Positions 8,284 to 32,223 of a DNA stretch of 64,000 nt are shown one piece after another; position 1 is the first letter of the stretch, and every line of letters starts with the position of its first letter. The position numbers and the translations under genes were made by a program. The notes under the pieces are model-generated. The model was not told the origin of the DNA. It ran no database searches and saw nothing but the letters and a program-made list of their open reading frames with translations. This DNA is from Erysipelotrichaceae bacterium (GTDB taxonomy: Bacteria > Bacillota_I > Bacilli_A > RFN20 > CAG-826): assembly GCA_015059105.1 (NCBI GenBank), contig SVBB01000005.1:1-64000 (forward strand), read 5' to 3'.

Positions 8284-9651
8284 TTATTGAAGAATGTTCT
8301 TATGTGTTTTATAGAATTCCTTCTTCACTTCATACATGTTTTTATCCGCTTTACGGAAGATATCAAGAAGCTCATTGTCTTGACCTACTTCATATGTAGC
8401 GTAGCCAACTGATAACGAGAGAATAAATGGCATTTCAGTATTTGTATTATTAAATTGGTCAATCATACGTTTGCACTCTTCGTCTTTTGCTTTGAATTCT
8501 TCTACGCTTCCGCGATAAATGATGACGAATTCGTCACCACCAATTCTGAAACATATACGGTTTCCATAAACAGTTTGAATTATATTTGCAGCGATTTTTA
8601 AAAGTTCATCACCAATTTCATGCCCAGTTGAGTCATTAACAGTCTTTAAACCATTGACGTCATATATCGCAACTACAAGTTCTTTTAATTCGTTATTTTT
8701 GATTTGTTCGTTAATGACTTTTGATGTGCTAGTATAGGCATTTCTATTCGACACTCTAGTTAACCTATCAATTGACGCTTCTTCTTGAGCGTAATCAATG
8801 TAACGTCGAATTTCACCACGGAGGTTGAAAAGCTTATTTCTAATATTCGTGAGTTGATCATCACTACCCCCTTTGACGACGATCTCTTCTTGATAGGCGA
8901 CATCGTTAAGTGGCTTTTCAATATCACCGACGAGGTTTTGAATATCGCTTTCTAAGGAATTGATATCATTTGATAAATCTTTGATTTTCTTACGCATTGA
9001 ATAAGTGATTAATAAACTTAATCCAACGCCGAGAGCGATTGTGACAGCAGAAATAGAAACAACCGCGGAAGAATTTGTCGCGACCAATTTATCTAAGTAA
9101 TCTGCCCAGACATCAACACCAACAACCGCGGTTACTTGACCATCATCGTTTTTAACAGGGGCATAACCACTATATAATTTGCCCCATCTATCAACATAAG
9201 CTTGGTCATCAGTACCAGCAAAGCCTAAGAAAGATTTGTTCATCGCTTCTGTATTGATTGGTTCTTCTACCAAAAATTCTCCAGGGTCATTGCTTGGATC
9301 AACTGAGAAAACAATCTTTCCATCGATTTTCACTAATAGATAGATATAGGCAAGTTCACCATTGCTATCTTCGGAGCTCGTTTTAAAACTATTTAAAATA
9401 TTATAAGCAGTTGTGTAATTCGCTGTTTTATTATCTTTATCTTCTTTAGTGAGACTACCAACGACATTTCCATCTAATAAAGAAGCTGCCGTTAATGCAT
9501 CTTCCATGATTTTATGTTTGATTAAGTTGGTTGTCGAATTAATGGAATAAATGGTAAAGAAGATACCTAAACCAACGTCAGTTAAAAGTAACACTATAGA
9601 GACAGTGATGGCGACTAATAAGGATGTAGGAATCTTTCTTTTGCTTTTCAT
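8284..9651 (-). CDS. Membrane diguanylate cyclase with extracellular dCache-like sensor
   Basis: 455 residues. Transmembrane helix at about 12-36, extracellular sensor 40-190 with the Cache-type strand GYAPVKNDDGQVTAVVGVDV, second helix about 195-218, coiled-coil linker, then a GGDEF domain (290-450). The active loop RIGGDEF (369-375) and the DVNGLKTVND substrate segment are intact, so it should make c-di-GMP. No RxxD inhibitory site precedes the loop. Last gene of the fibre operon. A five-codon mini-ORF with the only good ribosome site ends one base before the ATG. Confidence 0.9.
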   Translation of the reverse strand: MKSKRKIPTSLLVAITVSIVLLLTDVGLGIFFTIYSINSTTNLIKHKIMEDALTAASLLDGNVVGSLTKEDKDNKTANYTTAYNILNSFKTSSEDSNGELAYIYLLVKIDGKIVFSVDPSNDPGEFLVEEPINTEAMNKSFLGFAGTDDQAYVDRWGKLYSGYAPVKNDDGQVTAVVGVDVWADYLDKLVATNSSAVVSISAVTIALGVGLSLLITYSMRKKIKDLSNDINSLESDIQNLVGDIEKPLNDVAYQEEIVVKGGSDDQLTNIRNKLFNLRGEIRRYIDYAQEEASIDRLTRVSNRNAYTSTSKVINEQIKNNELKELVVAIYDVNGLKTVNDSTGHEIGDELLKIAANIIQTVYGNRICFRIGGDEFVIIYRGSVEEFKAKDEECKRMIDQFNNTNTEMPFILSLSVGYATYEVGQDNELLDIFRKADKNMYEVKKEFYKTHKNILQ

Positions 9652-9652
9652 T

Positions 9653-9670: not shown

Positions 9671-9757
9671 TTATCACCTCTTTTGCAACCTTTTATCTAT
9701 AAAAAATATTTCTTATTAAAAAGAAATATAATGGAATTTACAAAAAGAAAGAAATTG

Positions 9758-10937: not shown

Positions 10938-13900
10938 CTAAGAGTTTTTTCTTAATTCTTCAATAAACTTCACTTTATCAAGTGGACGATAGAAGTGATA
11001 ACCTTGGACATATGTATTCTTGCTGATGTCCTTGATGAGGATGAATTGGTCTGCGTTTTCAACACCGACGAGAGAAGCTTTAATGCCCGCTGCTTCCGCT
11101 TCTTTAACTAACGCGGTCACTTCTTGTAAGTGCTGTGGATTGACTTCGATATCACCAACGATCTTTCTATCGATCTTAATCTCTGTAAAGCCTAATGCTT
11201 TTAATGTATCAATAGAAACATATTTACCGGTATATTGGTCAACTGAGAGGACGATATGTTCATTTAAGATTGTCTTCGTCATACCTTTGAATTCTTCCAT
11301 GTGGTTATAGATTTCTCTTTCCGTAATTTCAAAGCCTAAGAAGTCTCTTGGTAAATGATAATTGACAAGAAGATTATGAATCTCTTCATGGAATGATAAA
11401 TCCGCGAAATATGAATAGTCAGTGTTGATTGTAAGTCTTGTAAAGCCATACACTTTAAAAACTGTTAAACCAAACTGTTCATAAAGTTCACCGATATATT
11501 TAATCAAAGCATTAGAAATGAGAGAAATCTTACCGTTCTGCGCGGCAGTTTTAATTAATTCATCCGCGGAGAAGACCATGTTTCGATAGTTATCAGAAAG
11601 ACGTAAGAATATTTCAGCGCCATAAATGGATTTATCCACTGTTCTGACCATTGGTTGAAGAGCGACAGAGAATGTCTTATTACCAAACTGTTCATCGATA
11701 ACCGCAAGCATAAATTTATTTCTCGAGGCGCTTCTGGAGTAATCGCCATCTGGGAAGTAAAGGATATCTTTATTGATCTCGTAATTACGTTGATTGTAAT
11801 GACGAACGACGTATTTGAGGAAGTCTTCCGCGATTGGATATGACTGCGGGAAGGAATATGGAAGATAAGTGATATTGAAGTTATAAGCTTCTTCATCGAC
11901 TTTATAATCTTTTTTACTCGCTTCATAAATGTGTTCAACTAGGTTGACGACATCGATTTGGCCGCTTTCAGGTAAGAGAATTGCAATCGATTGATTATCG
12001 AAAGCATAGATATCTTCTTTTTCTTTATTAATCGCTTTAATCGCTTGAATGAACTGTCTCATTAAGAAGAGATATTTCTCAGAACCGACTTTATCTAATA
12101 AATCTTGATGGTTATCAATTCTTAACACTAAAACATATCCTCTCGCGTTGATGTTATATAATCCGCGTAAAGATAAGGCGAGAGACGTGAAAGAAGAGAT
12201 GAGTAATTCTTTATCAAATCTATCATAGACCGAGCTTTCATCAGTGATGATTTGAAGTAGGAGTCTCTTCAAAGTTGAATTTCTTTCGTTGATCGATAAA
12301 GAAGCGACATATTTAGTTCCATTAATTTCCCCATATTTCTTTTTAGAAGTAAGAAGCGGACAATTTGGACATGGTTTGTCTCTTCCTTCAATGACTTTGT
12401 AACATTTTTCACCGACTTTCGCGTTTTTAAATAACGATTCAAAGTTTCCGGAATAAGAGACGATATCATATGTTTCTTCATCAATACGATATAAAGTTGA
12501 GTTATTGCTAGAAAGCATCGCATTGATTTCGTTATATGTGTTATTGAAATGATCTTCTCTTCTCATCATTAAAAGGAAGTCACCGATTCTATGGAAAGCG
12601 AGGAAGATACCTTCTCTTAAATAAGAATTAATCGGCATTTCTCTATTTTGGTTGAAGAAATAAATCGCCGCATATGGGTAACCCTTATCACGTGAGACGA
12701 AATAATAGCCAGAGAATAAATTCATCTTATCAATAGATTCAGCGAGGCCAACGTTGCAGTGACTACGCGCGGAGAAATAATATGAGCAATCTTTATCGAC
12801 CGCTTGGTCAAGTGCTTCGATTAAATCGCGTGGGACTTCATCTCCTTCTTTAAAGATACGGCTTTCACCTTTCCCTAAAGAGAGAAGAGAATAATACCGA
12901 TGATTATCATCGTTTTGAATAAAGATACCTGCGTAATCGATATCGAGATAATTGCTAAGCGCGGACATCGCTTTTTTCACCGTTGATAAGGATTTATTTC
13001 TATCGCTTGAAGAGATTCTTAAATCGGATAGATATTCCAAAATGCGAGAAACGTTATTTAAATTCATCGAATTTTGCATAACTCCAGAATCACCAAGCGT
13101 GGATAAGCGGTTTGGAAGATATAAGTTAATGATTTCCCCTTGTCTTTTCGCATATCTTAAATCCGCGAATAAATCAGGAATATCGCTATAAGGATAACAA
13201 ACTAAAGAGAATCTCGCATTGATTGTAGAAATACCATCATAAGTCTTTTTAGAAACGCTTAAGCGCTTCATATAATTCGCGGCTAATTCGTGAATATGTG
13301 AGAAAGAATCGATATGAGGAAGGAAGATGTAATAACCACTATTATTTTCGTTTAAAGCAAAACGACGATATGGGAAATCACTAAAAACGTCCTTTAGTGA
13401 GGTTAATATTTGTTCTTTTTCTTCTTCATCTAAACTATCATTATCAAAATCATAGAATAATTCACATAAAGCGTTACGATAGTTTTGTGAACTATAGATG
13501 AGAGGTGATAGATACTTCTTTAAGGAAGCTAACGTTACAAGCTCCTCATCGTTATTGAGGTGTTCAAGTGGAATATTCGAATCATCATAAGTATGGGAAA
13601 TCAATATTCCATTTTCAAACTCTGCTTTAATGACATCGATTTTTTCATTTAATTCATTAATTTCTTTGATATTGGTTTCTGGATAAAGCGGTAAATCTTT
13701 TTCATTATTTTTGATTTTCTCCATCAAAACGGCAGTATTTTTATATAATCCATCGATATAATACTTTTTTAAACGTTTCACGATAATAAAGCAAAAGAAA
13801 GCATATATCGCTAAAACGAGGAAGACAAATCCGGCAAGGATATATAGGAAAACTGGATTACCTAAATTGATATATAAAAGTGATAAAGCAACCGTTCCAA

Positions 13901-13982
13901 GTAAAAGAACGAGAAGGATACCTCCTGGAAGGAAGATAGAAGCGAGGAATGAACGAGAAATCGTGTAAGTTCGTTTTTTCAT
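10938..13982 (-). CDS. Degenerate GGDEF/EAL membrane protein with Cys-containing PAS-like domain
   Basis: 1014 residues: two N-terminal helices (about 12-70), a coiled region, a GAF/PAS-like middle with the cysteine cluster GRDKPCPNCPL (around 555), a non-canonical GGDEF-like segment without the GGDEF loop, and a C-terminal EAL-like domain (about 755-1010). In the last, the EAL motif reads GAEIFLRL and DDFG is replaced by VDQYTG, while QGYHFYRPL is kept. Catalysis is unlikely; a c-di-GMP receptor or scaffold role is more plausible. It is three bases from the nucleosidase-like gene. Confidence 0.8.
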   Translation of the reverse strand: MKKRTYTISRSFLASIFLPGGILLVLLLGTVALSLLYINLGNPVFLYILAGFVFLVLAIYAFFCFIIVKRLKKYYIDGLYKNTAVLMEKIKNNEKDLPLYPETNIKEINELNEKIDVIKAEFENGILISHTYDDSNIPLEHLNNDEELVTLASLKKYLSPLIYSSQNYRNALCELFYDFDNDSLDEEEKEQILTSLKDVFSDFPYRRFALNENNSGYYIFLPHIDSFSHIHELAANYMKRLSVSKKTYDGISTINARFSLVCYPYSDIPDLFADLRYAKRQGEIINLYLPNRLSTLGDSGVMQNSMNLNNVSRILEYLSDLRISSSDRNKSLSTVKKAMSALSNYLDIDYAGIFIQNDDNHRYYSLLSLGKGESRIFKEGDEVPRDLIEALDQAVDKDCSYYFSARSHCNVGLAESIDKMNLFSGYYFVSRDKGYPYAAIYFFNQNREMPINSYLREGIFLAFHRIGDFLLMMRREDHFNNTYNEINAMLSSNNSTLYRIDEETYDIVSYSGNFESLFKNAKVGEKCYKVIEGRDKPCPNCPLLTSKKKYGEINGTKYVASLSINERNSTLKRLLLQIITDESSVYDRFDKELLISSFTSLALSLRGLYNINARGYVLVLRIDNHQDLLDKVGSEKYLFLMRQFIQAIKAINKEKEDIYAFDNQSIAILLPESGQIDVVNLVEHIYEASKKDYKVDEEAYNFNITYLPYSFPQSYPIAEDFLKYVVRHYNQRNYEINKDILYFPDGDYSRSASRNKFMLAVIDEQFGNKTFSVALQPMVRTVDKSIYGAEIFLRLSDNYRNMVFSADELIKTAAQNGKISLISNALIKYIGELYEQFGLTVFKVYGFTRLTINTDYSYFADLSFHEEIHNLLVNYHLPRDFLGFEITEREIYNHMEEFKGMTKTILNEHIVLSVDQYTGKYVSIDTLKALGFTEIKIDRKIVGDIEVNPQHLQEVTALVKEAEAAGIKASLVGVENADQFILIKDISKNTYVQGYHFYRPLDKVKFIEELRKNS

Positions 13983-13984: not shown

Positions 13985-14722
13985 TTAATCCTCCCTGATG
14001 ACGTCGTTACGACCGATATCACCGATACAGGTGACAACCGATTTACCGACATCGCTATAATGTTTTAAAACTTTTATATATGCTTCAGTGGTGTCTTTTT
14101 CATCGATTTTTCTTTCGACAACTTTCACCGCGATAACCGGCACTTTATGAAGATGACCCGCAATAGCCACTCCACCAGAAGTACAGTCACAGACGACATT
14201 ATGGTTATGACCTAAAACATAGCCACCCATTTCAATGTTCTTGATTCTTTCGTGAGTATCTAAAACCACATTGGAAGAAACAACTGAACATAATTCATTT
14301 TTTACAAAGCTTCTTTTCTCAATAGAAGCTGTTAAATATTTGATAACTTCTGGGTCGGATTCAAAAGAATGTGGAAATTTTGGAATTTGGCCGAGTCTAA
14401 CATTAGCCTCTTTAACTTGGTTGACATCCCCGATTAAAATACGTCTGCTAATAACGATATCACCTGTTTCTAAATTAGGTGAAAAGGCGACGCATTTACC
14501 AACTACAAAGGCAAGAATAACAAAGTATTTCTCAATGATATAAGAAGTTACTAATGAAGATTCATAACAAGTAAAGATATCCCAAACAAGGACTACTTCC
14601 TGATTGAATATCGTTCCAATAAGCGCTTTATACTTATCAAAAATTATGTCTTCTTTCTTATTGACCATGACACTTTCGAAATAGAGAATGTCATCATGAG
14701 TGGAACCTAAAATCATGATCAT
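13985..14722 (-). CDS. Divergent nucleoside phosphorylase/MTA-SAH nucleosidase-like protein
   Basis: 245 residues. FVVGKCVAFSPNLETGDIVI matches the central strand and glycine-rich segment of PNP_UDP_1 enzymes. CTSGGVAIAGHLHKVPVIAVKVV aligns with the MEGAAIAQVA...VP segment of MtnN/Pfs, but the catalytic Met-Glu and the later Ser-Asp are not preserved. It is therefore probably a non-catalytic nucleoside-binding homologue. Sited between the EAL phosphodiesterase and the degenerate EAL protein with gaps of two bases, it may sense a nucleotide or c-di-GMP breakdown product; that role is inference. Confidence 0.5.
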   Translation of the reverse strand: MIMILGSTHDDILYFESVMVNKKEDIIFDKYKALIGTIFNQEVVLVWDIFTCYESSLVTSYIIEKYFVILAFVVGKCVAFSPNLETGDIVISRRILIGDVNQVKEANVRLGQIPKFPHSFESDPEVIKYLTASIEKRSFVKNELCSVVSSNVVLDTHERIKNIEMGGYVLGHNHNVVCDCTSGGVAIAGHLHKVPVIAVKVVERKIDEKDTTEAYIKVLKHYSDVGKSVVTCIGDIGRNDVIRED

Positions 14723-14724: not shown

Positions 14725-16254
14725 TTATCTATCCTCCCCTCTTTCAAAAGGATTTGATAACAAGAATTTTTCATAATCCTTGACCGGCAAAGCCTCTGAA
14801 TAATAGAATCCTTGGATTGTATCGCATTTGAATCGTCTTAAAATATCGACTTGTTCTTTGTTATCAACACCTTCAGCGATGACTTCAAGGTCGCTTGCTT
14901 TACAGAGTTCGATTAAGAACTTGACGATATCGCGGCTCTTCATATCAGTGACGATATCATCGATATATGATTTATCGATTTTAACCGCGTCAAAAGGCAT
15001 CTTTCTTAAGTTACCGATATTAGAAAAACCAATACCAAAGTCATCCATCAAGACACGAACACCTCTATCTCTAAGTTTCTTAATGATGGAAATAGAGATG
15101 AATGTATTCGCTTGGCTAGTTGCTTCAGTGATTTCAATTTCAATATATGATGGGTTGATTTGATATTTATCTAAGATATTGATGATGGAGTTAAGGAAGT
15201 CGTTTGAATAGAATTCATATAATGAGAAATTGATAGAAACGGGAATAATTCTTCTTCCTTTTCTTTTCGCTTCATTTAAATCCTGACAAACTCTTTCAAA
15301 AACATAAGTATCGATTTCATGAATTAAACCTGCTGCTTCAGCAATAGGGATGAATTTAGCAGGAGTTAAGATACCATTTTTTGGTGAATGCCATCTCACA
15401 AGAGCTTCTGAGGAGACGAAACGTCGTACAGAAAGAGAGAATTTCGGCTGATAATAAACGACGAATTCGTTGTTTTTTAAACCCTGGGTAATCTCTTCCA
15501 CATCGCTTCTTGAAGAATGATGACGGAAGGATTCATGGTAATAAGTCATCGTTTCAAAGTTTCTTTCAGAAACGTTTCTAGCGACCATCGCATTTTCAAT
15601 ATCTTCGACTAAACGGGAATCACTAGTCATTTCACAGATGCCGAAGAATGGTTGCACCCAAATACGAATTTGGCTCTCTTGAGCGATTCTCAGTAAATTT
15701 GTAGAAATCGTATCCACTAATTCTCTGATTTGCCTTTCTTCATAATCACGACAGTAGAGAATAAAAATACCACGCGTAAAGCAATATGCGACATTTTTCT
15801 TTTTCTTTTTATCAAAGAATTTGTCTAGAAATTCCGCGATCGTTAAATTATAAGCGTTAACCGATTCATCACGATTGACGTTTTCGGTAACGGCTTTATT
15901 CGCGGCAGAGAAAGCGATGATGAACTGCTTTACCTTTTTGCTTCTAAAAGCTTTAATCGCCACCACTCTCGCACGGAATGCGTTTAAGTCGAAGAATGTC
16001 GTTGCTTCCCCAAAACTATAAAGGTTTTCGCTGATAAGAGAATGAGTTGAAGATAATACGGAAATGTATTTCGCCGTGAAAAGCGCGCCACATACCGCAC
16101 TAGCTGGTAGAACGCCCAAACAAATATAGAATAAGAACGCTAATTCTCCTTCATGGGTTAAGAAACGCAGTAAGATAATTCCTAGAAATGAAATGAAGAA
16201 TAAAGCGATACAAATAATCGATAATATCAAATATACTCTTTGTCTACTTTTCAT
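14725..16254 (-). CDS. EAL-domain c-di-GMP phosphodiesterase, membrane-bound
   Basis: 509 residues: two transmembrane helices (about 7-65), a degenerate GGDEF-like segment (about 90-230), then EAL (about 245-500). Catalytic elements look intact: SSEALVRW, PVSINFS, EIEITEAT, LMDDFGIGFSN, AVKIDKSYI, VIAEGVDN and QGFYYSEAL. It should hydrolyse c-di-GMP to pGpG. Lying in an operon switched on by c-di-GMP, it could provide negative feedback. It starts one base after the signal peptidase gene. Confidence 0.9.
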   Translation of the reverse strand: MKSRQRVYLILSIICIALFFISFLGIILLRFLTHEGELAFLFYICLGVLPASAVCGALFTAKYISVLSSTHSLISENLYSFGEATTFFDLNAFRARVVAIKAFRSKKVKQFIIAFSAANKAVTENVNRDESVNAYNLTIAEFLDKFFDKKKKKNVAYCFTRGIFILYCRDYEERQIRELVDTISTNLLRIAQESQIRIWVQPFFGICEMTSDSRLVEDIENAMVARNVSERNFETMTYYHESFRHHSSRSDVEEITQGLKNNEFVVYYQPKFSLSVRRFVSSEALVRWHSPKNGILTPAKFIPIAEAAGLIHEIDTYVFERVCQDLNEAKRKGRRIIPVSINFSLYEFYSNDFLNSIINILDKYQINPSYIEIEITEATSQANTFISISIIKKLRDRGVRVLMDDFGIGFSNIGNLRKMPFDAVKIDKSYIDDIVTDMKSRDIVKFLIELCKASDLEVIAEGVDNKEQVDILRRFKCDTIQGFYYSEALPVKDYEKFLLSNPFERGEDR

Positions 16255-16255: not shown

Positions 16256-17143
16256 TCATTTTTCTCCTTTCTTATTAAGCATTTCTTCTAATAATTCTTT
16301 TTTCAGTCTCTCGCGATCTTTATCCGATAATTCGTCGAGTGATGATGGGGTATTACCTCCATCTCCACCGCCGCCTTCATCTTCTTCATCGTTATCTTTC
16401 ATCGCAGAGAAGATATCAAGAACAGATGTAATGACCAAATAGAAGGCCGGAACAAGGAGGAAGACTAATAATCCCCAAGGAGAAGATATAAAGCGGTAAA
16501 AACCCCCTAAAACCTTACTATTTGCCTGTACAATACCTAAATATTGTTTTTCGGTAAAGGCTTGATATTGACCAGCTTGCGCTTGGTGTTCACTGGTGTT
16601 GATACCAGCGACGATAAATGTATATCTACCGTCACCAACAGTTTTTGATTCATCAACTTGAATTTCTCTAAGTCTATGAGTCATTACTACTCCGGTTGGG
16701 TTAGTTTGATCATTGAGTTCTGGATGGTTAAGTGGTTTGACATAAGTTTGGTAAACATCCATAAATGTCATATCGATTTTAATAGTAGAATCAGTTAATG
16801 ATTTTTGATATCTATCATAAACGGATTCTAATGAATCGCGATGGGTGATAATCGCTGAATTAGTCATATAATCCGGTTCCATAGAATCAGTCAAGATGAC
16901 AAAGCTACCAAAACCAAAGGAAATGGTTTGCCCATAGTTTTCATTTTTATGAATCATCCCGTCGATTTGACCAGCGGCAAAAACGGCAAAAAAGGCAAAG
17001 AAAATACCGGTCAACACCCAGCCGATGATCTTTCTCACCTTGCTCTTAGGTTTTTTGACCTTTTCTTCTTTAGTAGGTTCCACGACTTCTGGATTCACTA
17101 CTTCGGGAGTTTCATCTAAGTTTTTCTTACTTTCTTCGTCCAT
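16256..17143 (-). CDS. SipW-type signal peptidase I
   Basis: 295 residues. After an acidic/Pro-rich cytoplasmic tail come TM1 (about 37-60) and the catalytic serine in LTDSMEP (Ser87). The general base appears to be the histidine of VVMTHRLRE (His156), giving the Ser-His dyad of the ER/SipW group rather than Ser-Lys. TM2 is about 228-252. The C-terminus ends with a charged helix LSDKDRERLKKELLEEML that recurs in the small membrane protein at 24.7 kb. It is the obvious processing enzyme for the exported proteins of this locus. TAATG overlap with the preceding gene. Confidence 0.88.
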   Translation of the reverse strand: MDEESKKNLDETPEVVNPEVVEPTKEEKVKKPKSKVRKIIGWVLTGIFFAFFAVFAAGQIDGMIHKNENYGQTISFGFGSFVILTDSMEPDYMTNSAIITHRDSLESVYDRYQKSLTDSTIKIDMTFMDVYQTYVKPLNHPELNDQTNPTGVVMTHRLREIQVDESKTVGDGRYTFIVAGINTSEHQAQAGQYQAFTEKQYLGIVQANSKVLGGFYRFISSPWGLLVFLLVPAFYLVITSVLDIFSAMKDNDEEDEGGGGDGGNTPSSLDELSDKDRERLKKELLEEMLNKKGEK

Positions 17144-21301: not shown

Positions 21302-22467
21302 AATCGAGAAATTTGGAATTGTAACCCTAGGTTAAAGGAGTGATGATTCTCCTGGTCGATCACGTGGTGATCCCATCCTTCTAACCATATGGTTACGTCT
21401 AAGTTAGCGACGCCATTAACAGCATCTGTTGCACATACTGGTTTGCCCCATGAAAGAGCACCATTATCATCGATAGGCTTCACCGTCCCAATAGTATCAT
21501 AATTTTGATACTTCGCATGTAAATCGGCGAATGAGGCAGGACGTAAAGTATTTTTAAAATACTTTGATGAGAAAGTCGTCAGTTCATCCGTCTTTCCCGT
21601 TAAGTTGAAGTCTTGAATAGTAGCCGAACTAGTATCCCCTTGATCAACAGTTTCAATTGCTAAGATTTCATCTTCAGTTTCGTATTCGGTTTCACCGTAT
21701 ACAATATTGTAACTATGACCATTCTTCTCATAAGTATCGTAATAACCGTTACCAGAAATATCTAATAACCCTGCAACTGCAGTTTTTCCCTTGCTAGTGT
21801 TAGTATCAGATGGATTGATTAAGTATTTAACAGGCGCAAAGTTTAATACTTCATCGTTAACAGTAGCCTGTTGACCAGAAGTAAACATTCTAATCGCCTT
21901 ATATACTTCTCCGTCTTTTTCCGCGTCAGAAGCTTGAACCTTGGTATCAGATAACCAAATGTTCTCCCCTTTCGCGTAATCTTTAACATTGGAACTATTA
22001 TATCTAATAATCCTAAACGCTAATGGGATATAGACGTATTTTTTAGTATCAGCAGTATAAGAATTAAACGGGGTGCCAGATACAAGCGGATTCTTTAAAG
22101 ATAAGTCACCGCTTGTATAACTACCGGAAGTGACTGGTTCTAATTTATTAGAAGCATAGACTTTTTCATCTTCCAAGTATGTTTTGATGATTTCAGCAGG
22201 TAACCCTGCTCCAGCGTCGCACCAGTAATAGGATTGACCAGCGACATCTTCTCGTTTCATACCTAAAGTACCGAGATTGGGATCATCTGTTTTGATACCA
22301 ATCTGCAGTTGTTCAGAGCTCGCCACAGAAGTGCCTTGGTAAGAGATGCTTACTCTAGTAGAGTAGGCCCACCATGCTAGAGACCCGGATATAGTCCCTG
22401 CAAACCCAAGGAAAACGAGTGACGTTAGCCCAATAGATAGAAACGATATTCTTCTCTTGGTCTTCAT
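21298..22467 (-). CDS. SipW-type exported fibre-like protein 3
   Basis: 389 residues. Signal segment about 5-35 ends in TISGSLAWWAYSTRVSISYQ. The mature part is Thr/Ser/Asn/Tyr-rich and lacks cysteine apart from two dispersed residues. Its C-terminus reads IWLEGWDHHVIDQENHHSFN and ends in a beta strand LGLQFQIS. GAAAGG ribosome site. A 99-base gap upstream carries a GCATACGCGT motif also found at both c-di-GMP promoters. Same family as the three adjacent genes. Confidence 0.75.
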   Translation of the reverse strand: MKTKRRISFLSIGLTSLVFLGFAGTISGSLAWWAYSTRVSISYQGTSVASSEQLQIGIKTDDPNLGTLGMKREDVAGQSYYWCDAGAGLPAEIIKTYLEDEKVYASNKLEPVTSGSYTSGDLSLKNPLVSGTPFNSYTADTKKYVYIPLAFRIIRYNSSNVKDYAKGENIWLSDTKVQASDAEKDGEVYKAIRMFTSGQQATVNDEVLNFAPVKYLINPSDTNTSKGKTAVAGLLDISGNGYYDTYEKNGHSYNIVYGETEYETEDEILAIETVDQGDTSSATIQDFNLTGKTDELTTFSSKYFKNTLRPASFADLHAKYQNYDTIGTVKPIDDNGALSWGKPVCATDAVNGVANLDVTIWLEGWDHHVIDQENHHSFNLGLQFQISRL

Positions 22468-22566: not shown

Positions 22567-23544
22567 TTAACGATCTGCTTTGCAAGCAAATTGTAATTGA
22601 ATATTGAAGTTTTGAGCAATGTAATCAGTTGACCAAGTAGCATTTTCTCCACCGAGTTTGTCCCAACCTTCAAGCCAAATTCTAACAGTTAATACTTCAT
22701 TGACTTTACAAATAGCTTTTGCAGCAATATCATCATCAGAGTCTAAATCATAAACATGATTCTTTAATTCATCTTGAGTGAGAACCCAGCTATCATGAGC
22801 ATCTGTAGAGTAGGAACTTTCAGACACTGAAGTATCGTTAGAGTATTTGATTAATTTGCTTGAATCAGTGTTATCTGAATCAGTGCAATCCCAAAGCATA
22901 GTATCTGGACCAGTGCTATTACCATTAAGATCCAAATTACCTTCAGTTAATGTTTTTAAACCAGCTCCAGACTTTTCTTTGCCTAGTAAAGCCTTAGCTT
23001 TTCCAGCGCTATTTAAGAATGCAACTCTAACAGCACTTGAGACATCTTTTGTGTGAGTTTCGTCAGTCACTGGAACAATAGCGAAATGTGATAAATAGAT
23101 ATTTCTAGCATCGCTAGTTGGTGCGGCCCAAGCAGAACCATCAGTACTTTCTTGGAATCTAAAGTCAAAACTTAAATCAACGTATGGTGCTGTTTCAGTT
23201 GAACCAAATGCTGGTAATTGAGCAACTTGATAAACTGGGTGTTTTAAGAAGGCTAAAGTATCACCTTCAGATCCTGTACCAGCAGTTCTTTTAATTGTTG
23301 TTGGTAGGAAATTGCTTGGACCAACTACAACTTTTTGTTTCCAATCAGTTTCTTGATGTGAAGCAGCGTGTTGTACGATTTGTAATCTACCTAATGTGCC
23401 AGCGCTAGTACCTTGGATTAAAGCAGCCGCTCTAGTGGAATATTGATACCACGCGACAGATCCAGAAATTGATCCGGCTAAGCCTGCTCCCATTGCTAAC
23501 GCTAATACAGAGACTACAACTTTCTTTTTGTTATTCGTTTTCAT
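22567..23544 (-). CDS. SipW-type exported fibre-like protein 2 (probable major subunit)
   Basis: 325 residues. Signal segment about 8-33 ends in GSISGSVAWYQYSTRAAAL. The mature protein is rich in A, S, T, D and G with few basic residues, as in major fibre subunits. The C-terminal signature is IWLEGWDKLGGENATWSTDY followed by FNIQLQFAC. It overlaps the first subunit gene by 14 bases. TasA-like fibre formation is inferred from signal type, composition and the adjacent SipW peptidase. Confidence 0.78.
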   Translation of the reverse strand: MKTNNKKKVVVSVLALAMGAGLAGSISGSVAWYQYSTRAAALIQGTSAGTLGRLQIVQHAASHQETDWKQKVVVGPSNFLPTTIKRTAGTGSEGDTLAFLKHPVYQVAQLPAFGSTETAPYVDLSFDFRFQESTDGSAWAAPTSDARNIYLSHFAIVPVTDETHTKDVSSAVRVAFLNSAGKAKALLGKEKSGAGLKTLTEGNLDLNGNSTGPDTMLWDCTDSDNTDSSKLIKYSNDTSVSESSYSTDAHDSWVLTQDELKNHVYDLDSDDDIAAKAICKVNEVLTVRIWLEGWDKLGGENATWSTDYIAQNFNIQLQFACKADR

Positions 23545-24376
23545 ATGCGTTTATTTCAACTCCTAATTTTATTGTTGCACCTTGAGGTGCCATACCGCCG
23601 GATTGAGGATCATAACCCTCGATCCATGCGACAATTGTGTATCGATTCATATCACTTTGATTGAAGTATTTAACTGGTATACTTGTGACAACGTTCTCAC
23701 TTTTGAATTCAGTAGCAAATCCTGGGAATGGTACGCCTGTGTCTTCCGCGAGTTCGGGTGATATGGAAATATATTCCTTATTTGTAATATTCCCGTCCAA
23801 GTCGGTTTTTGTCTTTTCACTTGCTAATGCATATACTTCGTAATTATGGCTATTAACATCATAACCATCATTCTGATAAAGCATTACGCGTATCATACTA
23901 TCAAGATAGACTGGTCGGCCATCAAGCATGGCTGGTTTTGATTCAACAATGCGAACTGTCAAATTGTAATCCGCGGAAATCGTGCCCATATTCTTAATGA
24001 AGAACGTGTATTTGAAGAATTTCATTGAAATGTCAGAACTTTCTCCAATGTTATACGGCGTTGTTTCATTATCGACTACGTCGTCTGACGGTAGAGCTCT
24101 AAACGTCATCTGGTCAAACGCCTTCAATGTGTCGACTTTAAGGAATGAACTAACCACTCCGTCTCTACCATCTTCAGTCTTTCCAGTAAGGTATTCCTGA
24201 TTGTTAGATAAGGAGATTTTGACGTTTCCTGTGTTGAGGGATATGGTGAAACTTCCTGAGACGTTTCCTAAGAATGAGACTAAAATCAACGTGCTAATAC
24301 CGATGGTACCTAACCCCGATACAATAGCCGCTATCTTTTTCCTCTTTCTTTTTTTAACATAACCGTTTTCAATCAT
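23531..24376 (-). CDS. SipW-type exported fibre-like protein 1, first gene of the c-di-GMP operon
   Basis: 281 residues. Basic start KKRKRKK, hydrophobic helix about 16-36, then LGNVSGSFTISLNTGNVKIS. Here the AWF/AWY junction is replaced by SFTIS, so its processing may differ from its paralogues. The C-terminus carries VAWIEGYDPQSGGMAPQGAT and a closing strand IKLGVEINAY. First gene behind the riboswitch, it may be an anchor or initiator. No strong ribosome site precedes the ATG. Confidence 0.75.
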   Translation of the reverse strand: MIENGYVKKRKRKKIAAIVSGLGTIGISTLILVSFLGNVSGSFTISLNTGNVKISLSNNQEYLTGKTEDGRDGVVSSFLKVDTLKAFDQMTFRALPSDDVVDNETTPYNIGESSDISMKFFKYTFFIKNMGTISADYNLTVRIVESKPAMLDGRPVYLDSMIRVMLYQNDGYDVNSHNYEVYALASEKTKTDLDGNITNKEYISISPELAEDTGVPFPGFATEFKSENVVTSIPVKYFNQSDMNRYTIVAWIEGYDPQSGGMAPQGATIKLGVEINAYENE

Positions 24377-24439: not shown

Positions 24440-24562
24440 TAAAAGCCAGTGCCTATCATCCAATACATTGGCGGATTATTCATCCCTAAGGCAGCTGGCT
24501 ATCTTAGTTATTATAAGACCCTTTAGTTTTGCGACCCCATATCACTATGAGTGTGCTTTTAG
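24440..24562 (-). promoter_or_regulatory. c-di-GMP-I (GEMM-I) riboswitch with overlapping terminator
   Basis: On the minus strand: GCACAC, a P2 hairpin, GGTCGCAAAAC, then AAAGGGTC...AAGATAGCCAGCTGCC, matching the GEMM-I conserved skeleton (GCA-, -ACGCAAAGC-, -GATAGCCAG-TGCC). The same 3' strand (AGCCAGCTGCCT, 24488-24500) pairs with AGGCACTGGCT (24443-24454) to form a terminator followed by TTTTATT. Ligand binding would hold the 3' strand in the aptamer and prevent termination, so this is an ON switch. It controls the 16-kb operon. Confidence 0.93.
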
Positions 24563-24571
24563 CTCGGCCTT

Positions 24572-24664: not shown

Positions 24665-24685
24665 AAAAAAAGTGGGGTTACCACT
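24665..24685 (-). terminator. Terminator of the small membrane protein gene
   Basis: AGTGG-GGTTA-CCACT-type stem (minus strand AAGTGGTAACCCCACTT) followed by a run of T, overlapping the stop codon of the 115-residue gene. Confidence 0.75.
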
Positions 24686-25032
24686 TATTCATCTTTGTTT
24701 AGGTCTTTGAGAAGTTCTTTCTTAAGGGCTTCTTTTTGTTCATCAGAGAGATCGCTGACTTGCACAGGTTCTTTCTTTGTGCTCTTACGAACGTAGATGA
24801 CAAGTCCAATCACGTTAGCAGCAAGAAGAACGAACAATGGAACGACGAAGGCTACTCCGTAAACCCATGGTTGGAGATTCACTAACCAGCCAACAAAACC
24901 AGTCATCGCTTGTCTTTCCACATCACTCTTACCAGCATTCGCGAGCATGATGATACTTAAAACGAATAAAAAGATAGTGACAGCAACATCAACTGATATT
25001 CCGCAGATAAATAGCACTTTCTTCTTATTCAT
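24685..25032 (-). CDS. Small two-helix membrane protein sharing a C-terminal motif with the signal peptidase
   Basis: 115 residues from the ATG at 25032; a TTG three codons earlier is less likely. Helices at about 5-30 and 50-80, short basic loop, then the tail SDLSDEQKEALKKELLKDL. A near-identical tail (LSDKDRERLKKELLEEML) ends the SipW-type peptidase of the same locus. It sits between the two divergent fibre operons as a monocistron with its own terminator. Possibly an accessory or anchoring factor for the peptidase; inference only. Confidence 0.65.
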   Translation of the reverse strand: MNKKKVLFICGISVDVAVTIFLFVLSIIMLANAGKSDVERQAMTGFVGWLVNLQPWVYGVAFVVPLFVLLAANVIGLVIYVRKSTKKEPVQVSDLSDEQKEALKKELLKDLNKDE

Positions 25033-25304
25033 GGTCAGCAAAAGCTTTCTACGATTATATATGTTATACCACTACTTCAATTTTTCAAAACATTTTTTTA
25101 TCTTATATTATAAGGATTTTTTATTTTTAACATACATTTACGCATTTGCATTTGTATCATTTATATACTTTTGTCCATATAACCTAAATATTAAATATCT
25201 TCTTTTTAAATAAAAACATATAAAAATCTAATATTCCTTATGTGTTGAAAGTAACGATCAACCAAGAAAAAAATAACAAACAAGCTTTGCTTAATAAAAA
25301 ATAT
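25033..25304. other. AT-rich gap between divergent units
   Basis: Very AT-rich DNA with no supported gene. It holds the probable promoter of the small membrane protein gene (TATAAT on the minus strand near 25055-25060). Nothing else recognised. Confidence 0.5.
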
Positions 25305-25335: not shown

Positions 25336-25438
25336 ATTATGCTGAACGAAAGCGATTAGGACGTCCCATCCTTATTGGCGACATGCGAGGCAAATTATAG
25401 CTATCATCCATTCAATTAAAACAAGTTGAATGATTTTT
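25336..25438 (+). promoter_or_regulatory. Structured leader with terminator, unidentified class
   Basis: The leader can fold with ATGAT...GCT pairing AGC...ATCAT as closing stem and a GGACGTCC palindrome within. It ends in CATTCAA (25409-25415)/TTGAATG (25426-25432) followed by TTTTT, a terminator just before the ribosome site. This is the layout of a riboswitch or attenuator. It lacks the conserved bases of c-di-GMP-I and does not match my recollection of c-di-GMP-II or other common classes. Confidence 0.5.
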
Positions 25439-25461
25439 GTCGTTTAATATAAGGAGAAATT

Positions 25462-26418
25462 ATGAAAAACAAAAAATCTAAAATCATAGTTCCTGCGCTC
25501 GGATTAATCTTATTATCAACTGCTGCTAGTATTTCCGGATCTGTGGCATGGTTCACTGCTAACAGAACTGCAACAATCAACACTGGTGCATTCGGTGTTG
25601 TCAAAACAGATGGTACTTTAGCTGTAGAAGTCACCAATGGAGTTGGCACTGTTGTGACCAACACTACCGTCAGTCGAGTTACGGATGCTAAAATTGCCGA
25701 TGTTTCTTTTAACCCAAAAACACATCAGTTGTACACTGATAAAGGTAATGGTGATGTAAGTGGTTATCGCGAAATCGGTGGTACTACTTCGTTTAGTACT
25801 GCCCCAACAGGAGGCACTGGAACAGGGGCGCACGCTTACAAAATCGATGATAAAACATACTATGCGTTCACATGGAGTGTCACCCTCACATACACATGGG
25901 GGCCAGACAAGACACCATTAAACGTTTTCTTTGATTATAAGAATTCTAGCATGTCAACAACTTCTGCAGCAGAAACTGACTCTGGTTTGAGAATAGCAAT
26001 GGCTGCTACTAAAACTGTTGTATTCGCCGGAATGCAAGCAACTGCAGGTAACTTAAAGGGTGTATATGGCACTGCTGCAAATAATTTTGAAGAATACGGC
26101 ACTACAAACATTACGGGCGGAGTCTTTGGTGGCTATTTTGCTCAATCTGTTTACGGAGATAGCAATACTGCGTCTAGTAACGCAACAGCCACTAAAACAA
26201 CATACTCACAAGCGTTAGATGGAGATACTCAATCTGTCCAAATCGCCAGACCAGATTTCTTAGGCACCATCGAACAAGAAGGTGAAGAAACTAATAGTGA
26301 TATTGTCATTAACTGTATCGCCTGGTATGAAGGAACTGACCCAAACGTTGTTAATAACAAATCTTTAGGTGAAGTTAGTTCTACACTCGCATTCTACGCC
26401 ACAACACAAGGCGAATAA
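25462..26418 (+). CDS. SipW-type exported fibre-like protein 5
   Basis: 318 residues. Signal segment about 8-30 ends in AASISGSVAWFTANRTATIN, the clearest match to TasA/camelysin-type precursors in the window. The mature part is Thr/Ala/Gly/Asn-rich, acidic and free of cysteine except one. The C-terminus has IAWYEGTDPNVVNN followed by a strand, the same signature as the minus-strand paralogues. AAGGAG ribosome site. Monocistronic behind its own structured leader, and likely a major fibre subunit (inference). Confidence 0.78.
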   Translation: MKNKKSKIIVPALGLILLSTAASISGSVAWFTANRTATINTGAFGVVKTDGTLAVEVTNGVGTVVTNTTVSRVTDAKIADVSFNPKTHQLYTDKGNGDVSGYREIGGTTSFSTAPTGGTGTGAHAYKIDDKTYYAFTWSVTLTYTWGPDKTPLNVFFDYKNSSMSTTSAAETDSGLRIAMAATKTVVFAGMQATAGNLKGVYGTAANNFEEYGTTNITGGVFGGYFAQSVYGDSNTASSNATATKTTYSQALDGDTQSVQIARPDFLGTIEQEGEETNSDIVINCIAWYEGTDPNVVNNKSLGEVSSTLAFYATTQGE

Positions 26419-27325: not shown

Positions 27326-27332
27326 ATAGATG

Positions 27333-27430
27333 TAAAAAGCAAAACTACAGTGATGTAGTGACGCAAAGCTAGAGGGTCTTGATAATGAAGATAGCCAGTT
27401 GCCGAAAGAAAGGTAACTGGATTTTTATTA
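27333..27430 (+). promoter_or_regulatory. c-di-GMP-I (GEMM-I) riboswitch with overlapping terminator
   Basis: AAAAAGCAAAAC, P2 hairpin CTACAGTGATGTAG, TGACGCAAAGC, AGAGGGTC, then GAAGATAGCCAGTTGCC: all GEMM-I landmarks in order. CCAGTTGCC (27395-27403) then pairs with GGTAACTGG (27412-27420) around GAAAGAAA and is followed by ATTTTTATT, a terminator that uses the aptamer 3' strand. Binding should therefore prevent termination (ON switch) for the 268- and 1325-residue surface proteins. Confidence 0.95.
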
Positions 27431-27437: not shown

Positions 27438-28244
27438 ATGAGAAAAGTTAGAAATAATAAAAACTTAAAGATCATCGCATCCATCAGTGTTGTTCTTTTC
27501 TCTTTAGTCGCTACTTTCTCTGGTGCAATCGCTTGGTTCCAAGCCATGAGAAACACAAACAACACTACTGACTCTTTTAAAATTACTCCACGTGCTGGGT
27601 TACTCAGAACATTATCTATTCATGAACTTGTTGAAAATGACGCATTTATATATAACCAAACGGGAGACATCGTCGGATATAATTTCAACCCAATAGCTGC
27701 TAGTGATATCACGATCAACTGGGGTGAAGCAGTTACTCCTCAATACAATGTAGACACCCCATCATTAGGCCAATACTCGTTGCTTCAAAAAACAAATCCT
27801 CTGCTTCTCGTCTTTGAACTCAATAACAGCATTGCTTCTAGCAGCGTAACAATCACCGCTACAGCAAGTGAAACATATAACGCTGAGCAATACGATACTG
27901 AAGCATCGGGAGATGGCAATCCATTATCGTGGGTTGTGAAATATTCATCAAAAGCATTCTCTAAACAACAACTCGCTGATAGCGATTATATCATCACTAC
28001 TGAATCCCTTTCTAACGAGGGACATTTTGCTACTATAGACAATAGCGGAACTCTTTCTGAATTCAATAAAACTCAAACCTTTTATCACGGAAACAACAGC
28101 ACAGAAATCAATTACGTTTTTGTCGTCTTAGATTACTACGAAGCAGCTATGGAATTCTTCTATTTCGCCAACCTGGGCAAAGATTTTATCAGTGACGCGA
28201 CAAAAGATGTTCCTTTTAACATCGACTGGACCATGGAGATATAA
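27438..28244 (+). CDS. SipW-like exported protein 6
   Basis: 268 residues. Signal segment about 9-32 ends in ATFSGAIAWFQAMRNTNNTT. The mature domain has the Ser/Thr/Asn-rich composition of the other subunits. In place of the W-x-EG-x-D motif it has VVLDYYEAAMEFFYF, and it ends in a strand FNIDWTMEI. The start follows the riboswitch terminator by 12 bases and lacks a clear ribosome site. The next gene begins one base after its stop; the two are probably assembled or anchored together. Confidence 0.7.
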   Translation: MRKVRNNKNLKIIASISVVLFSLVATFSGAIAWFQAMRNTNNTTDSFKITPRAGLLRTLSIHELVENDAFIYNQTGDIVGYNFNPIAASDITINWGEAVTPQYNVDTPSLGQYSLLQKTNPLLLVFELNNSIASSSVTITATASETYNAEQYDTEASGDGNPLSWVVKYSSKAFSKQQLADSDYIITTESLSNEGHFATIDNSGTLSEFNKTQTFYHGNNSTEINYVFVVLDYYEAAMEFFYFANLGKDFISDATKDVPFNIDWTMEI

Positions 28245-28245
28245 T

Positions 28246-31200
28246 ATGGCAAAGAAGTTATTCGGTACCATTGCTATCTCCTCTATGATTGCTATGTCTG
28301 CAGTTGCAGCTATTTCTGCTTCTGTTGCATGGTTTCAAAGAAACGCTAGTCTAGATGAAAGAACAAAAATACAAGGCTGGTCCCAAGGCGCGTACTTTGC
28401 TGGTGGACACGGTGTTGATGGCGATCCATATATCATCAATAAACCAGTTCACCTATACAATTTAGCGTGGCTACAATACATCGGCTACTTCAACGATGGC
28501 CAAAACGCAGATGGCACTGGTGCTATTGCAGCTAATAAACAAACATATTTTAAACTTGAAGCTGATATAGATATGAGCTCATTCGGTTCCGCCCTTCCCC
28601 CAATCGGTACTTCTAAATACCCATTTGTCGGTAACTTTGATGGCAACGGCAAAACCATATCTAACTGTGTAACCACTAATGATTTCAGCGAAACAACTAA
28701 ACACCCATCAATCGTTAAAAGTATTACTGACGCTAATTGTGTTGGACTTTTTGGTGTTGTAGGAAAACAGTCCGGCCAATCTTTTACATATACTAGCAGC
28801 ATTAACGAAATTAAAAACCTCGGCATTCTAGGAGCGACCGTTAAAAGTTCAACATCTACCACTTTAGCGGGTATCGCTGCTGGATATGTTAACGGAACTC
28901 TTGATAATGTTGCAGTTAACCAATCTAATCTATATACATTACAAAGTGCTAGCCCTATCACTTCTATTACAAATAATGTATCTGATTATTCTTTAGTTGG
29001 ATACACCACTAACGAGTACAAAAGAAAAATTAGACTAAGAAGCGATGATGCAAATATTCCAACCGTAGAAAACCCTAATACTGCACAAGGCGGTGATAAA
29101 TGGGGTGGATCCATCAACATGCTCGATATGTTCAATTATTTACGAGCTCAAAGCAATTCTCTTCCGGCATATGAGTTCCCGACAGAAGAAAACGTTTATA
29201 TAGACGTAGATGGAACCGAAACAAGACAAGTTCTCGATACCGATGTCGCATATGACTATAATACTAGTTTTGGAGAATACATTCGTTATGAAGGTGGAAA
29301 AGTCATAGAAGACGGAAAAGAATATGCGTCATTCTCTTTCGCAAGGTCGTCAGGTAATAGTAGTTTTTCATCATATAACAACTCAGATAATCAATTTATT
29401 TGCTTGTATGGTGGTTCCACTAAAAGAGCGACAAAAGCTAGTTATGGTTATTGGGATGGATATTCGGCTAATTATCAAACTAAATCTGTTACCACTTATA
29501 CTGATACAACAATTGACAACTACGTTATCACTGATGGATTAGCAAATTACTTAAGAATAAATGGCGGCACTATTTCGAATTCAACAACACTTCAAACAGG
29601 ATGTTATTTTACTTTAGATAATAATGGGTATTTATATACATCTACCGGCACTACCTATTATCTTTACAAAAACGGCGAAAATTTGGCAGCAGCCACCACG
29701 AGACAAAACAATGATGATTACAAATGGGTTTACGATGAAGATAACAGCTATTTAAAAGTCAGTGGTGGTAATTATTATTTAAGATATACGGGAACAAGGT
29801 GGGAAATCGTGAGCAAAACACAGACCCAGAATGTAGATCACTTTTCTCTAAAGACCGGTAACTATTATTTGAATGCCAATGGCACTAATTTAGAACTTAG
29901 CAGCGGAGATAACACTAATTGGTATGTTTTAGACAATAATGTATATACTATCATAGGTGGCACCCGTTACTATATTTGTTATTCTGGCGACAACATTCTG
30001 CTATCGAATAATGGTAGTAAATTCACATTTTCTTCGGGCAAATTCTATTATACCTATTGGTCATACTATAACAGGTATTATCGTTCTATTGTGGTAAATA
30101 ACGCGACTTTAACGCTTGCAGCCCAAAATAGTAGTACCAATAATGCGACTGTTTTTACCCAAACCTATCATACAGAACCTTTATATTTGACTGCTGAAGC
30201 ATATTACACTAATAAATCTACTTCAGTCAGTGGCCCGACAAACGAGAATTCATACTATAATACACTCCCAACTTATTTCCCATTAACTAGAGAAAAAAAT
30301 GAAAAAGGAGAATTCACTGGTTCAAGCAAACCTGACATTAAAAACACTGGTTATGTCGTCTCTGGATCTTATTTGACACACGAAAGCCAAGGACCATATG
30401 GTGATATACGTGTGTCGAGATTTGCAATGAGTGACATTAGCGTTGCCTTAAGTGGCTCAAGTTCATATTCTTCTAGTAAACTAGAGGTGGTTACAAGAAC
30501 TTGTGTCCCAAATGATAGCGGCCAATATAGTGATTCTGGATGGACTCGTATTTCTGATGAAGATAATAAGAATAATACTGCATCCAGCAGTCTTTCAAAA
30601 GCCTATCCTAACAAATTGAACTATAAGACAGGGCTAAGGCTTGGTAAATATAAAAATTCGAGAACTCAACTTGGCAACACACTAAGTAATGGGGGAGGAA
30701 ATATTTACGGACTTCACTTTATGGACGCATCTATTTCAACAAGCAAAGTAATCGAAGCCAAAAACGTGACTGTTCTAGATGGAAAGACTTTTGATGGAGA
30801 TGACCCAATTGGCACATATTATCCAACTTATGAGCTTCCCGAAGACTCAATCGATTTTAATCTCAAAAACCAAGGTTTTATCAATTTCTTCGCAGGAACA
30901 TATTTCTCCAATGGTAGCGGTTCAAATAGAATTGTAAACGACACCTTCTTTTCCCTTCACACAATCACTAGAAACCAAGACAACACAATAGCTGATATCC
31001 AGGAGATTAAAAAGATTTACGCCCCTGCATCTGGAGAGCCAAGTGATGAAAACCCATATATTTATTCTTTTGACGGAAATAAGCCTACAGGCTCCGGAGA
31101 TTTAGTTTTTGACACAGAATGGATTACTAATCCAAATAAAGATATAAAGATTGTAGAAGATGCGGTCTATTACTTTGAAGTCCCGGTTAACGCTGGGGAA

Positions 31201-32223
31201 TTTGCCTTAGGTTCTGTTTCTACCAGAAACGGTGCTTATTTGATGTATCTAGATATCGGTGCTGGTATTGATAACTATAAAGATATTGTTACCACCGAAT
31301 CTATATCCACTGCTGTCAATTATACTGATTATCCATTAGGAATTGATTTCTTGTCATTTACTGCTGGTACGGCAAGAAGCGCTATTATTAAAGGCGGCGA
31401 TTCGGCTTGTATTAAAGTTGGAACTAATAGCGTTGCTGGTCAAACCATTGCTTTCATTTATAGTGATTCTACATTAACCGTCTCAACAGCAAGTGATACT
31501 CTTCCTGCTGCTGTACAGTATGAATCTCTTAGCACGAGTGTTAAAAAGAAAATTGGAGAAGCTGGCGCTACAGACCTCACTTTCTCTCCACCATCGCTAT
31601 TTACTTCAGTAGAGGAAAAAGTAACTCTTGAAAGCTTTAACGTCTTTACTTCTCAAGTGACTAGATCTGTAACCCAAACAATAACGTATTCAGGAGGAGC
31701 AACAGGCGAAATAGTTAAGCTTCCAACACCAGTGACGACTACCGGATTCACAATCACTGAAGCCGCAACTTATAGCGTTGAACAGGGTAACCCAGCGACA
31801 ATAGATAACACCAAAAAAGAATTAACTTGGACTGGTAGTGGCACTGTGAAACTAACAATGACCTATGCTGAAACTATGAATAACGTTGAAGAATGGGCAA
31901 CAGCAACCACCGCCTCTTCGGACAATACTGAAGGAACAATCTTCGAATATCACTTACGTGATTACGACGATCCAAACTTAACTGTCTATTACTATTACGA
32001 TGTGGCAAGCAAAACATATACTTTGTATATCAATGCGGCTAATGACACAGAACTATATATTGATAGCCTACCACCAGCTCCTAGAGCAGAGACACAACAG
32101 TTGCCAGCGATACCTCTTTACACAGTTGAAATCGTTGTTAATGGTGATACCGCTCATAAGACAGTTCTCACTTCAGCTTCAACCTCTATCACTTCTATTC
32201 CAATTACTGGAACAGGAGCATAA
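28246..32223 (+). CDS. Large GLUG-type surface protein with SipW-like signal (1325 aa)
   Basis: I start it at the ATG directly after the upstream stop (GGAG eight bases before), not at an ATG inside the upstream gene. The signal segment ends in AAISASVAWFQRNASLD. Residues about 45-130 contain GDPYIINKPVHLYNLAWLQYI and a buried-strand repeat, and about 160-230 the GLUG-like GILGATVK...TLAGIAAGYVNGTLDNV, as in bacterial adhesins. The middle is a long Tyr/Ser/Asn-rich beta region; the end is Thr-rich without a sortase motif. Likely the tip adhesin or surface layer of the fibre system (inference). Confidence 0.75.
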   Translation: MAKKLFGTIAISSMIAMSAVAAISASVAWFQRNASLDERTKIQGWSQGAYFAGGHGVDGDPYIINKPVHLYNLAWLQYIGYFNDGQNADGTGAIAANKQTYFKLEADIDMSSFGSALPPIGTSKYPFVGNFDGNGKTISNCVTTNDFSETTKHPSIVKSITDANCVGLFGVVGKQSGQSFTYTSSINEIKNLGILGATVKSSTSTTLAGIAAGYVNGTLDNVAVNQSNLYTLQSASPITSITNNVSDYSLVGYTTNEYKRKIRLRSDDANIPTVENPNTAQGGDKWGGSINMLDMFNYLRAQSNSLPAYEFPTEENVYIDVDGTETRQVLDTDVAYDYNTSFGEYIRYEGGKVIEDGKEYASFSFARSSGNSSFSSYNNSDNQFICLYGGSTKRATKASYGYWDGYSANYQTKSVTTYTDTTIDNYVITDGLANYLRINGGTISNSTTLQTGCYFTLDNNGYLYTSTGTTYYLYKNGENLAAATTRQNNDDYKWVYDEDNSYLKVSGGNYYLRYTGTRWEIVSKTQTQNVDHFSLKTGNYYLNANGTNLELSSGDNTNWYVLDNNVYTIIGGTRYYICYSGDNILLSNNGSKFTFSSGKFYYTYWSYYNRYYRSIVVNNATLTLAAQNSSTNNATVFTQTYHTEPLYLTAEAYYTNKSTSVSGPTNENSYYNTLPTYFPLTREKNEKGEFTGSSKPDIKNTGYVVSGSYLTHESQGPYGDIRVSRFAMSDISVALSGSSSYSSSKLEVVTRTCVPNDSGQYSDSGWTRISDEDNKNNTASSSLSKAYPNKLNYKTGLRLGKYKNSRTQLGNTLSNGGGNIYGLHFMDASISTSKVIEAKNVTVLDGKTFDGDDPIGTYYPTYELPEDSIDFNLKNQGFINFFAGTYFSNGSGSNRIVNDTFFSLHTITRNQDNTIADIQEIKKIYAPASGEPSDENPYIYSFDGNKPTGSGDLVFDTEWITNPNKDIKIVEDAVYYFEVPVNAGEFALGSVSTRNGAYLMYLDIGAGIDNYKDIVTTESISTAVNYTDYPLGIDFLSFTAGTARSAIIKGGDSACIKVGTNSVAGQTIAFIYSDSTLTVSTASDTLPAAVQYESLSTSVKKKIGEAGATDLTFSPPSLFTSVEEKVTLESFNVFTSQVTRSVTQTITYSGGATGEIVKLPTPVTTTGFTITEAATYSVEQGNPATIDNTKKELTWTGSGTVKLTMTYAETMNNVEEWATATTASSDNTEGTIFEYHLRDYDDPNLTVYYYYDVASKTYTLYINAANDTELYIDSLPPAPRAETQQLPAIPLYTVEIVVNGDTAHKTVLTSASTSITSIPITGTGA

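Follow-up and report, generated by a model that had tools for sequence, protein, structure and literature searches.

Between positions 8284 and 32223 of the 64,000-nucleotide stretch that we analysed (the window, part of contig C18) lie two divergent gene blocks, each with one c-di-GMP-I riboswitch. They belong to a small rumen bacterium whose genome measures 1.5 Mb. The closest named record is the 'Erysipelotrichaceae' MAG SIG220, and the other relatives are mostly rumen or gut MAGs. The genes and elements of the locus are the following.

8284..9651, minus: DGC1, diguanylate cyclase with a Cache-like sensor (Pfam GGDEF, 2.6e-26); found in the nearest relative, L049
9758..10879, minus: DGC2, membrane diguanylate cyclase (Pfam GGDEF, 5.7e-20); the L049 gene is 95% identical
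10938..13982, minus: EAL1, two TM helices, degenerate GGDEF and degenerate EAL domains (Pfam EAL, 2.5e-33)
13985..14722, minus: MTAN-like protein with a nucleosidase fold (Pfam PNP_UDP_1, 5e-9); its placement between the EAL1 and EAL2 genes is conserved
14725..16254, minus: EAL2, predicted membrane EAL phosphodiesterase (Pfam EAL, 1.9e-67)
16256..17143, minus: SipW-type (Ser/His) signal peptidase (NCBIfam SipW, 1.7e-6, partial)
17143..18717, minus: DUF2357 partner resembling the N-domain of McrC; tail long and charged, nuclease undetected (Pfam matches of homologues)
18720..20252, minus: NxD-type McrB-like AAA+ ATPase/GTPase; single TM helix at the N-terminus (AAA_5, 3.9e-6)
20255..21301, minus: ExpA, exported, SFSYAW junction
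21298..22467, minus: ExpB, exported, SGSLAW junction
22567..23544, minus: ExpC, exported, SGSVAW junction, paralogue of ExpB
23531..24376, minus: ExpD, TM-anchored beta-sandwich (AF2 pLDDT 88.8)
24445..24501, minus: intrinsic terminator; the 3' strand of the aptamer serves as its 5' arm
24487..24567, minus: c-di-GMP-I riboswitch before ExpD (Rfam RF01051, 50.5 bits)
24685..25041, minus: smTM, small protein with two TM helices, a conserved member of the locus
25338..25448, plus: structured leader RNA with a terminator, conserved, not in Rfam
25462..26418, plus: ExpE, exported, SGSVAW junction
27328..27406, plus: c-di-GMP-I riboswitch before ExpF (Rfam RF01051, 62.7 bits)
27395..27420, plus: intrinsic terminator overlapping the aptamer's 3' strand
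27438..28244, plus: ExpF, exported, SGAIAW junction
28246..32223, plus: ExpG, exported protein of very large size, SASVAW junction (we chose 28246 as the start codon)

The initial annotation had placed two c-di-GMP riboswitches in these divergent blocks, and both score above the RF01051 gathering threshold of 35 bits; the SipW-type peptidase and the membrane McrB-like ATPase that it named were likewise recovered by the family searches given above. Other parts of that description needed correction. Six of the seven proteins listed as exported with an AW-type junction carry it (ExpA, ExpB, ExpC, ExpE, ExpF and ExpG), but the seventh, ExpD, has an N-terminal membrane helix and lacks the AW site. 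The c-di-GMP proteins, counted as three, are present but number four, with GGDEF domains in the genes starting at 8284 and 9758 and EAL domains in those starting at 10938 and 14725. The DUF2357 assignment stands through relatives of the protein, since Pfam detects the domain in 5 of 23 homologues (best 2.7e-9) but not in the window protein itself. The nucleosidase-like gene, the small membrane gene and the structured RNA before ExpE were absent from that account.

Conservation of the locus and its relation to CoCoPALM

A scan of GTDB genomes yielded about 80 named loci with the full block or a reduced one, in Bacilli, Acholeplasmatales, Izemoplasmatales and Clostridia. Synteny is kept in many Bacilli, the Clostridia have a reduced block, and more than 15 related genomes keep all or most of the order ExpE-smTM-ExpD-(ExpC-ExpB)-ExpA-AAA-DUF2357-SipW-EAL2-MTAN-EAL1. 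Reduced loci were found in Ruminococcus albus strains KH2T6 and 8 (L124 and L164), where the order is EAL-like, ExpD, SipW, AAA, DUF2357, with an ExpE-like gene nearby. Because gene order is conserved in this way across related genomes and named loci, we conclude that the arrangement is not due to chance and that the locus is a real, widely conserved system.

To describe the company of the AAA gene we used those named loci, 42 in all, whose sequence extends 5 kb to either side of it. Exported AW-type proteins lie near it in 42/42 loci, SipW in 41/42, DUF2357 in 40/42, ExpD in 36/42 and EAL-like genes in 34/42; as the sample was picked by similarity to the window AAA, these figures describe that clade and not all McrB-like proteins. 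All 29 SipW-bearing relatives also have an AAA match, and in all but two of them SipW is on the same contig as the AAA/DUF2357 pair. The proposal that SipW processing, exported proteins, a membrane AAA/DUF2357 pair and c-di-GMP control form one unit is thus borne out by their conservation together. The constant neighbours SipW, DUF2357 and EAL-like genes argue against a stray restriction system, and a predominant association of the pair with nucleases or methylases, which would have spoken against a fibre role, was not seen: no such neighbours were noted in the loci examined.

A profile of the AAA protein finds E. coli McrB (6hz4) at 1.8e-7. Its motif GTANNDD corresponds to NxD followed by D/E, with N351, D353 and D354 invariant in 25 sequences, and a single TM helix near residues 57-85, a feature of nearly all members, is followed by a charged heptad-like stretch; the part after the helix is positively charged and presumably cytoplasmic. 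No FtsB/DivIC match was among the 25 Pfam families listed. The DUF2357 partner has a long, charged and repetitive tail that appears coiled-coil-like, and neither PD-(D/E)xK nor any other nuclease family was among the Pfam matches of its 23 homologues. The pair resembles E. coli McrBC in the McrB AAA+ core and in the N-terminal DUF2357 of McrC, and differs from it in having NxD instead of NxxD, a membrane helix in place of the DNA-binding domain and no detected nuclease. The signal peptidase is of the SipW type, with a Ser/His catalytic pair in place of Ser/Lys, and its Ser87 and His156 are invariant in 123/123 homologues.

No described system with this set of genes had been thought to exist, but the same core is already named: an eLife 2024 census of McrBC relatives introduces CoCoPALM in one paragraph, with its description deferred, as an NxD-type GTPase resembling McrB and joined to an FtsB-like TM/coiled-coil domain, with an McrC homologue and a signal peptidase, and predicts a role in pilus assembly (PMC11090510). 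Our locus shares the NxD McrB-like GTPase with its N-terminal TM helix, the McrC/DUF2357 homologue with a coiled-coil-like tail and the signal peptidase partner, and we regard it as a variant of a kind that was named but left undescribed. What it adds to that paragraph are the subunits, the predicted ON-type riboswitches, the EAL pair, the MTAN-like protein and the leader RNA; the firmest of these additions are the leader RNA and the predicted switching ON by c-di-GMP. Neither c-di-GMP nor riboswitches, EAL, TasA or biofilm come up in the main text of the census (PMC11090510). In the literature that we searched, which left out most subscription journals and bioRxiv, we found neither a later account of CoCoPALM nor a paper with both 'c-di-GMP riboswitch' and 'SipW'.

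Other NxD pairs occur in the same bacterial order as the window in different membrane contexts. Six loci (L070, L072 and L074-L077) hold a tandem AAA-DUF2357-AAA arrangement with large surface proteins that bear MBG, WxL-interacting or transglutaminase domains, L081-L084 hold four-TM NxD AAA and DUF2357-type genes beside an ABC transporter-like pair, and L085-L087 encode NxD AAA proteins with 11-12 TM helices; no linkage to nucleases was seen in the loci viewed, where most neighbours are unannotated. In a further locus, L193, a signal-peptidase-like gene is accompanied by AW-type exported proteins and by a c-di-GMP-I riboswitch; the first genes viewed there include no AAA gene.

RNA switches and c-di-GMP proteins

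When 69 named loci were searched together with the window, we found 44 c-di-GMP-I aptamers in 30 loci, and all 44 lie directly 5' of block genes or of other genes for exported or membrane proteins: 25 precede ExpD, three SipW, one an EAL-like gene, one ExpG and 14 other membrane or exported proteins. Across 114 relatives the riboswitch is found in 24 of the 29 genomes with SipW vs 12 of the 85 without it (p 2.7e-11), and for most aptamers outside the operon the genes that follow encode an ExpF-ExpG-like pair of exported proteins, one small and one very large. Compared with RF01051 riboswitches at large, the copies of this locus are mostly dedicated to SipW-type surface genes. This control is not universal, as none of the seven Clostridia loci searched has a c-di-GMP riboswitch. 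Tandem aptamers stand before exported or membrane proteins in L114, L115, L117, L129, L141 and L154, which belong to Acholeplasmataceae and relatives. A third c-di-GMP-I riboswitch of the window's own genome (L189, C24:46626-46703, minus strand) precedes a gene for a GGDEF protein, which suggests feedback.

The anatomy of the expression platform bears on the direction of the switch. The terminator takes its 5' arm from the aptamer's 3' strand in both riboswitches of the window and in 49 of the 63 copies overall, whereas shuffled downstream sequence gives an expectation of 5.1. Since one strand would serve both structures, ligand binding and termination should be mutually exclusive, and this arrangement predicts that the riboswitches of the locus are ON switches.

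The two EAL proteins appear to have diverged in function. In EAL1 the catalytic site departs from that of active EAL enzymes (DD to DQ, K to R and E to V/G), and we predict from these changes that the protein is a c-di-GMP receptor or sensor and not an enzyme. Most catalytic positions of EAL2 are conserved (in 53-55 of 57 homologues), and for this reason we infer that EAL2 is an active phosphodiesterase that destroys c-di-GMP. The protein encoded between them matches MTA/SAH nucleosidases (MTAN) at a profile value of 4.9e-36 and shares their fold by profile, but its catalytic ME and SD motifs are replaced, so that it is probably a pseudo-enzyme and may act as a sensor.

A second kind of RNA element lies before ExpE. 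This leader consists of a hairpin (P3), a terminator and a conserved GUCCC loop able to base-pair with a GAC further downstream. In an alignment of 12 sequences 13 of 24 pairs are changed on both sides, 0/500 shuffles reached the covariation score, and the P3 pairing is sequence-specific (0/2000 permutations). A covariance model found the leader in 12 of 114 relatives, once per genome; 11 of these matches stand before ExpE-type genes, and the remaining one, in G034, is a weak match that lacks an adjacent gene call of this type. Besides the window, it is seen in L089, L091, L092, L094, L095, L099, L101 and L108. Comparison with Rfam gave no credible match, and the leader may be a riboswitch, a candidate orphan. 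Pairing of a P3 strand with the ExpE ribosome-binding site was also considered and is unsupported (permutation p 0.14).

Exported proteins and a model for the locus

ExpD, with 53 homologues in the named loci, is the most widely conserved exported component, and its AF2 model is a confident beta-sandwich behind one membrane helix; the ExpE model is poor (pLDDT 56.5). The profiles of ExpD and ExpE are related (probability 98.1, E 1e-13), and several subunit-type Exp proteins, these two included, share a C-terminal W-x-E-G-x-D motif. Pfam and NCBIfam searches of the exported proteins gave nothing useful, and searches of PDB sequences with the ExpD and ExpE profiles returned no matches.

A relationship of the exported proteins to TasA or camelysin had been raised as a test of the fibre idea. 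By sequence it was not found: profile comparison with TasA, for which the B. subtilis sequence was used (a PDB search gave the identical chain 8aur), reached a probability of 0.6% in hhalign, no detectable relation; Pfam Peptidase_M73 (PF12389) had no match at the locus, and a class-wide search for this family gave too few sequences to build a profile. The TasA query had no match in plasmids either. On the side of the fold, Foldseek returned for ExpD weak matches that include fimbrial lectins and adhesins, donor-strand filaments and a Sulfolobus thread; those to fimbrial proteins had a best E of 5.8e-4 and TM-scores of about 0.2, and TasA was not among the best 50 matches listed. The locus resembles the B. 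subtilis tapA-sipW-tasA operon in its SipW-type peptidase beside exported subunits, and ExpD could fill the place of the anchor, but it has no detectable sequence similarity to TasA and its transcription control differs. To our knowledge, the B. subtilis operon has no AAA/DUF2357 pair.

Taken with the synteny, the company of SipW, AAA and DUF2357, the placement of the riboswitches, the terminator overlap, the kept and lost catalytic residues and the relation of ExpD to ExpE, these results lead us to favour, with some reserve, the view that this is a locus of the CoCoPALM type whose products build a surface fibre or an adhesive filament when induced by c-di-GMP. ExpE is a possible main subunit and ExpG a probable adhesin-like partner. 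Judging from the anatomy of the 49 overlapping copies, a rise in c-di-GMP would hold both aptamers together and block the terminators, so that the operon from ExpD to the EAL genes and the ExpF-ExpG pair would be transcribed. The Exp proteins would then be exported, cleaved by the SipW-type peptidase at their AW site and assembled on membrane-anchored ExpD, while an AAA ring at the inner face of the membrane might drive or gate subunit export and assembly, with the DUF2357 protein stimulating it by analogy with McrC and McrB. EAL2, if its conserved residues are a guide, would destroy c-di-GMP and limit the response, and two candidate sensors, the MTAN-like protein and degenerate EAL1, may relay the c-di-GMP state to the machine. 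The AAA protein could also serve a step other than fibre export or assembly. A more specific version, in which a restriction-type McrB/McrC ring has become an energised motor, anchored in the membrane, for assembly or retraction of SipW-processed fibres, with c-di-GMP acting through an RNA switch and a degenerate EAL/MTAN protein switch and the leader RNA, as a second riboswitch-like element, setting the supply of ExpE, we hold only tentatively, as a doubtful extension of the favoured reading.

Other readings of the same genes have to be considered. The Exp proteins, either secreted or tethered to the membrane, could form a matrix or adhesin coat without filaments, with the AAA/DUF2357 pair as a quality control device that extracts mis-inserted or unprocessed SipW substrates. 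The single membrane helix of the AAA protein and the positively charged, presumably cytoplasmic part behind it would suit such a task, as would a general role with membrane proteins suggested by the related NxD pairs that adjoin an ABC-type transporter and large surface-protein loci; however, the related subunits with the W-x-E-G-x-D motif and their large partner resemble a multi-subunit polymer, and pilus assembly is the role predicted for CoCoPALM (PMC11090510), so we regard the coat as unlikely. We consider it very improbable that the pair is still a defence module of the type IV restriction kind that sits in a surface operon or enlists surface proteins against phage. McrB homology, DUF2357 and the predicted defensive function of the sister CoCoNuT systems (PMC11090510) speak for this, but no nuclease domain was detected, nearly all AAA members have the N-terminal TM helix, and the constant company is SipW and exported proteins, with no methylase or nuclease family noted nearby.

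The direction of control could also be the reverse of what we propose, with a surface system made at low c-di-GMP, for some c-di-GMP-I riboswitches are OFF switches. Against this stand the terminator 5' arms formed by the aptamer 3' strand, in both window copies and most others, and we judge this reading to be quite improbable. If the c-di-GMP-induced fibre or filament is correct, it would give the first outline of a role outside DNA restriction for the McrBC relatives of CoCoPALM and would tie CoCoPALM to c-di-GMP in small-genome Bacilli and Acholeplasmatales; the locus would also supply candidates for the subunits and for two kinds of RNA switch.

Finally, we noted other features of the window. 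Directly 3' of ExpG, at 32586-34087 on the plus strand, lie genes for what look like a small HTH protein and, after it, a HipA-like protein. Near-identical translations of short open reading frames at 27019-27231 (minus) and 43799-44035 (plus) probably reflect an intergenic repeat of the genome. At 57959-63886 on the minus strand, this small genome encodes a protein of 1975 aa that is AMP-binding/synthetase-like in appearance.
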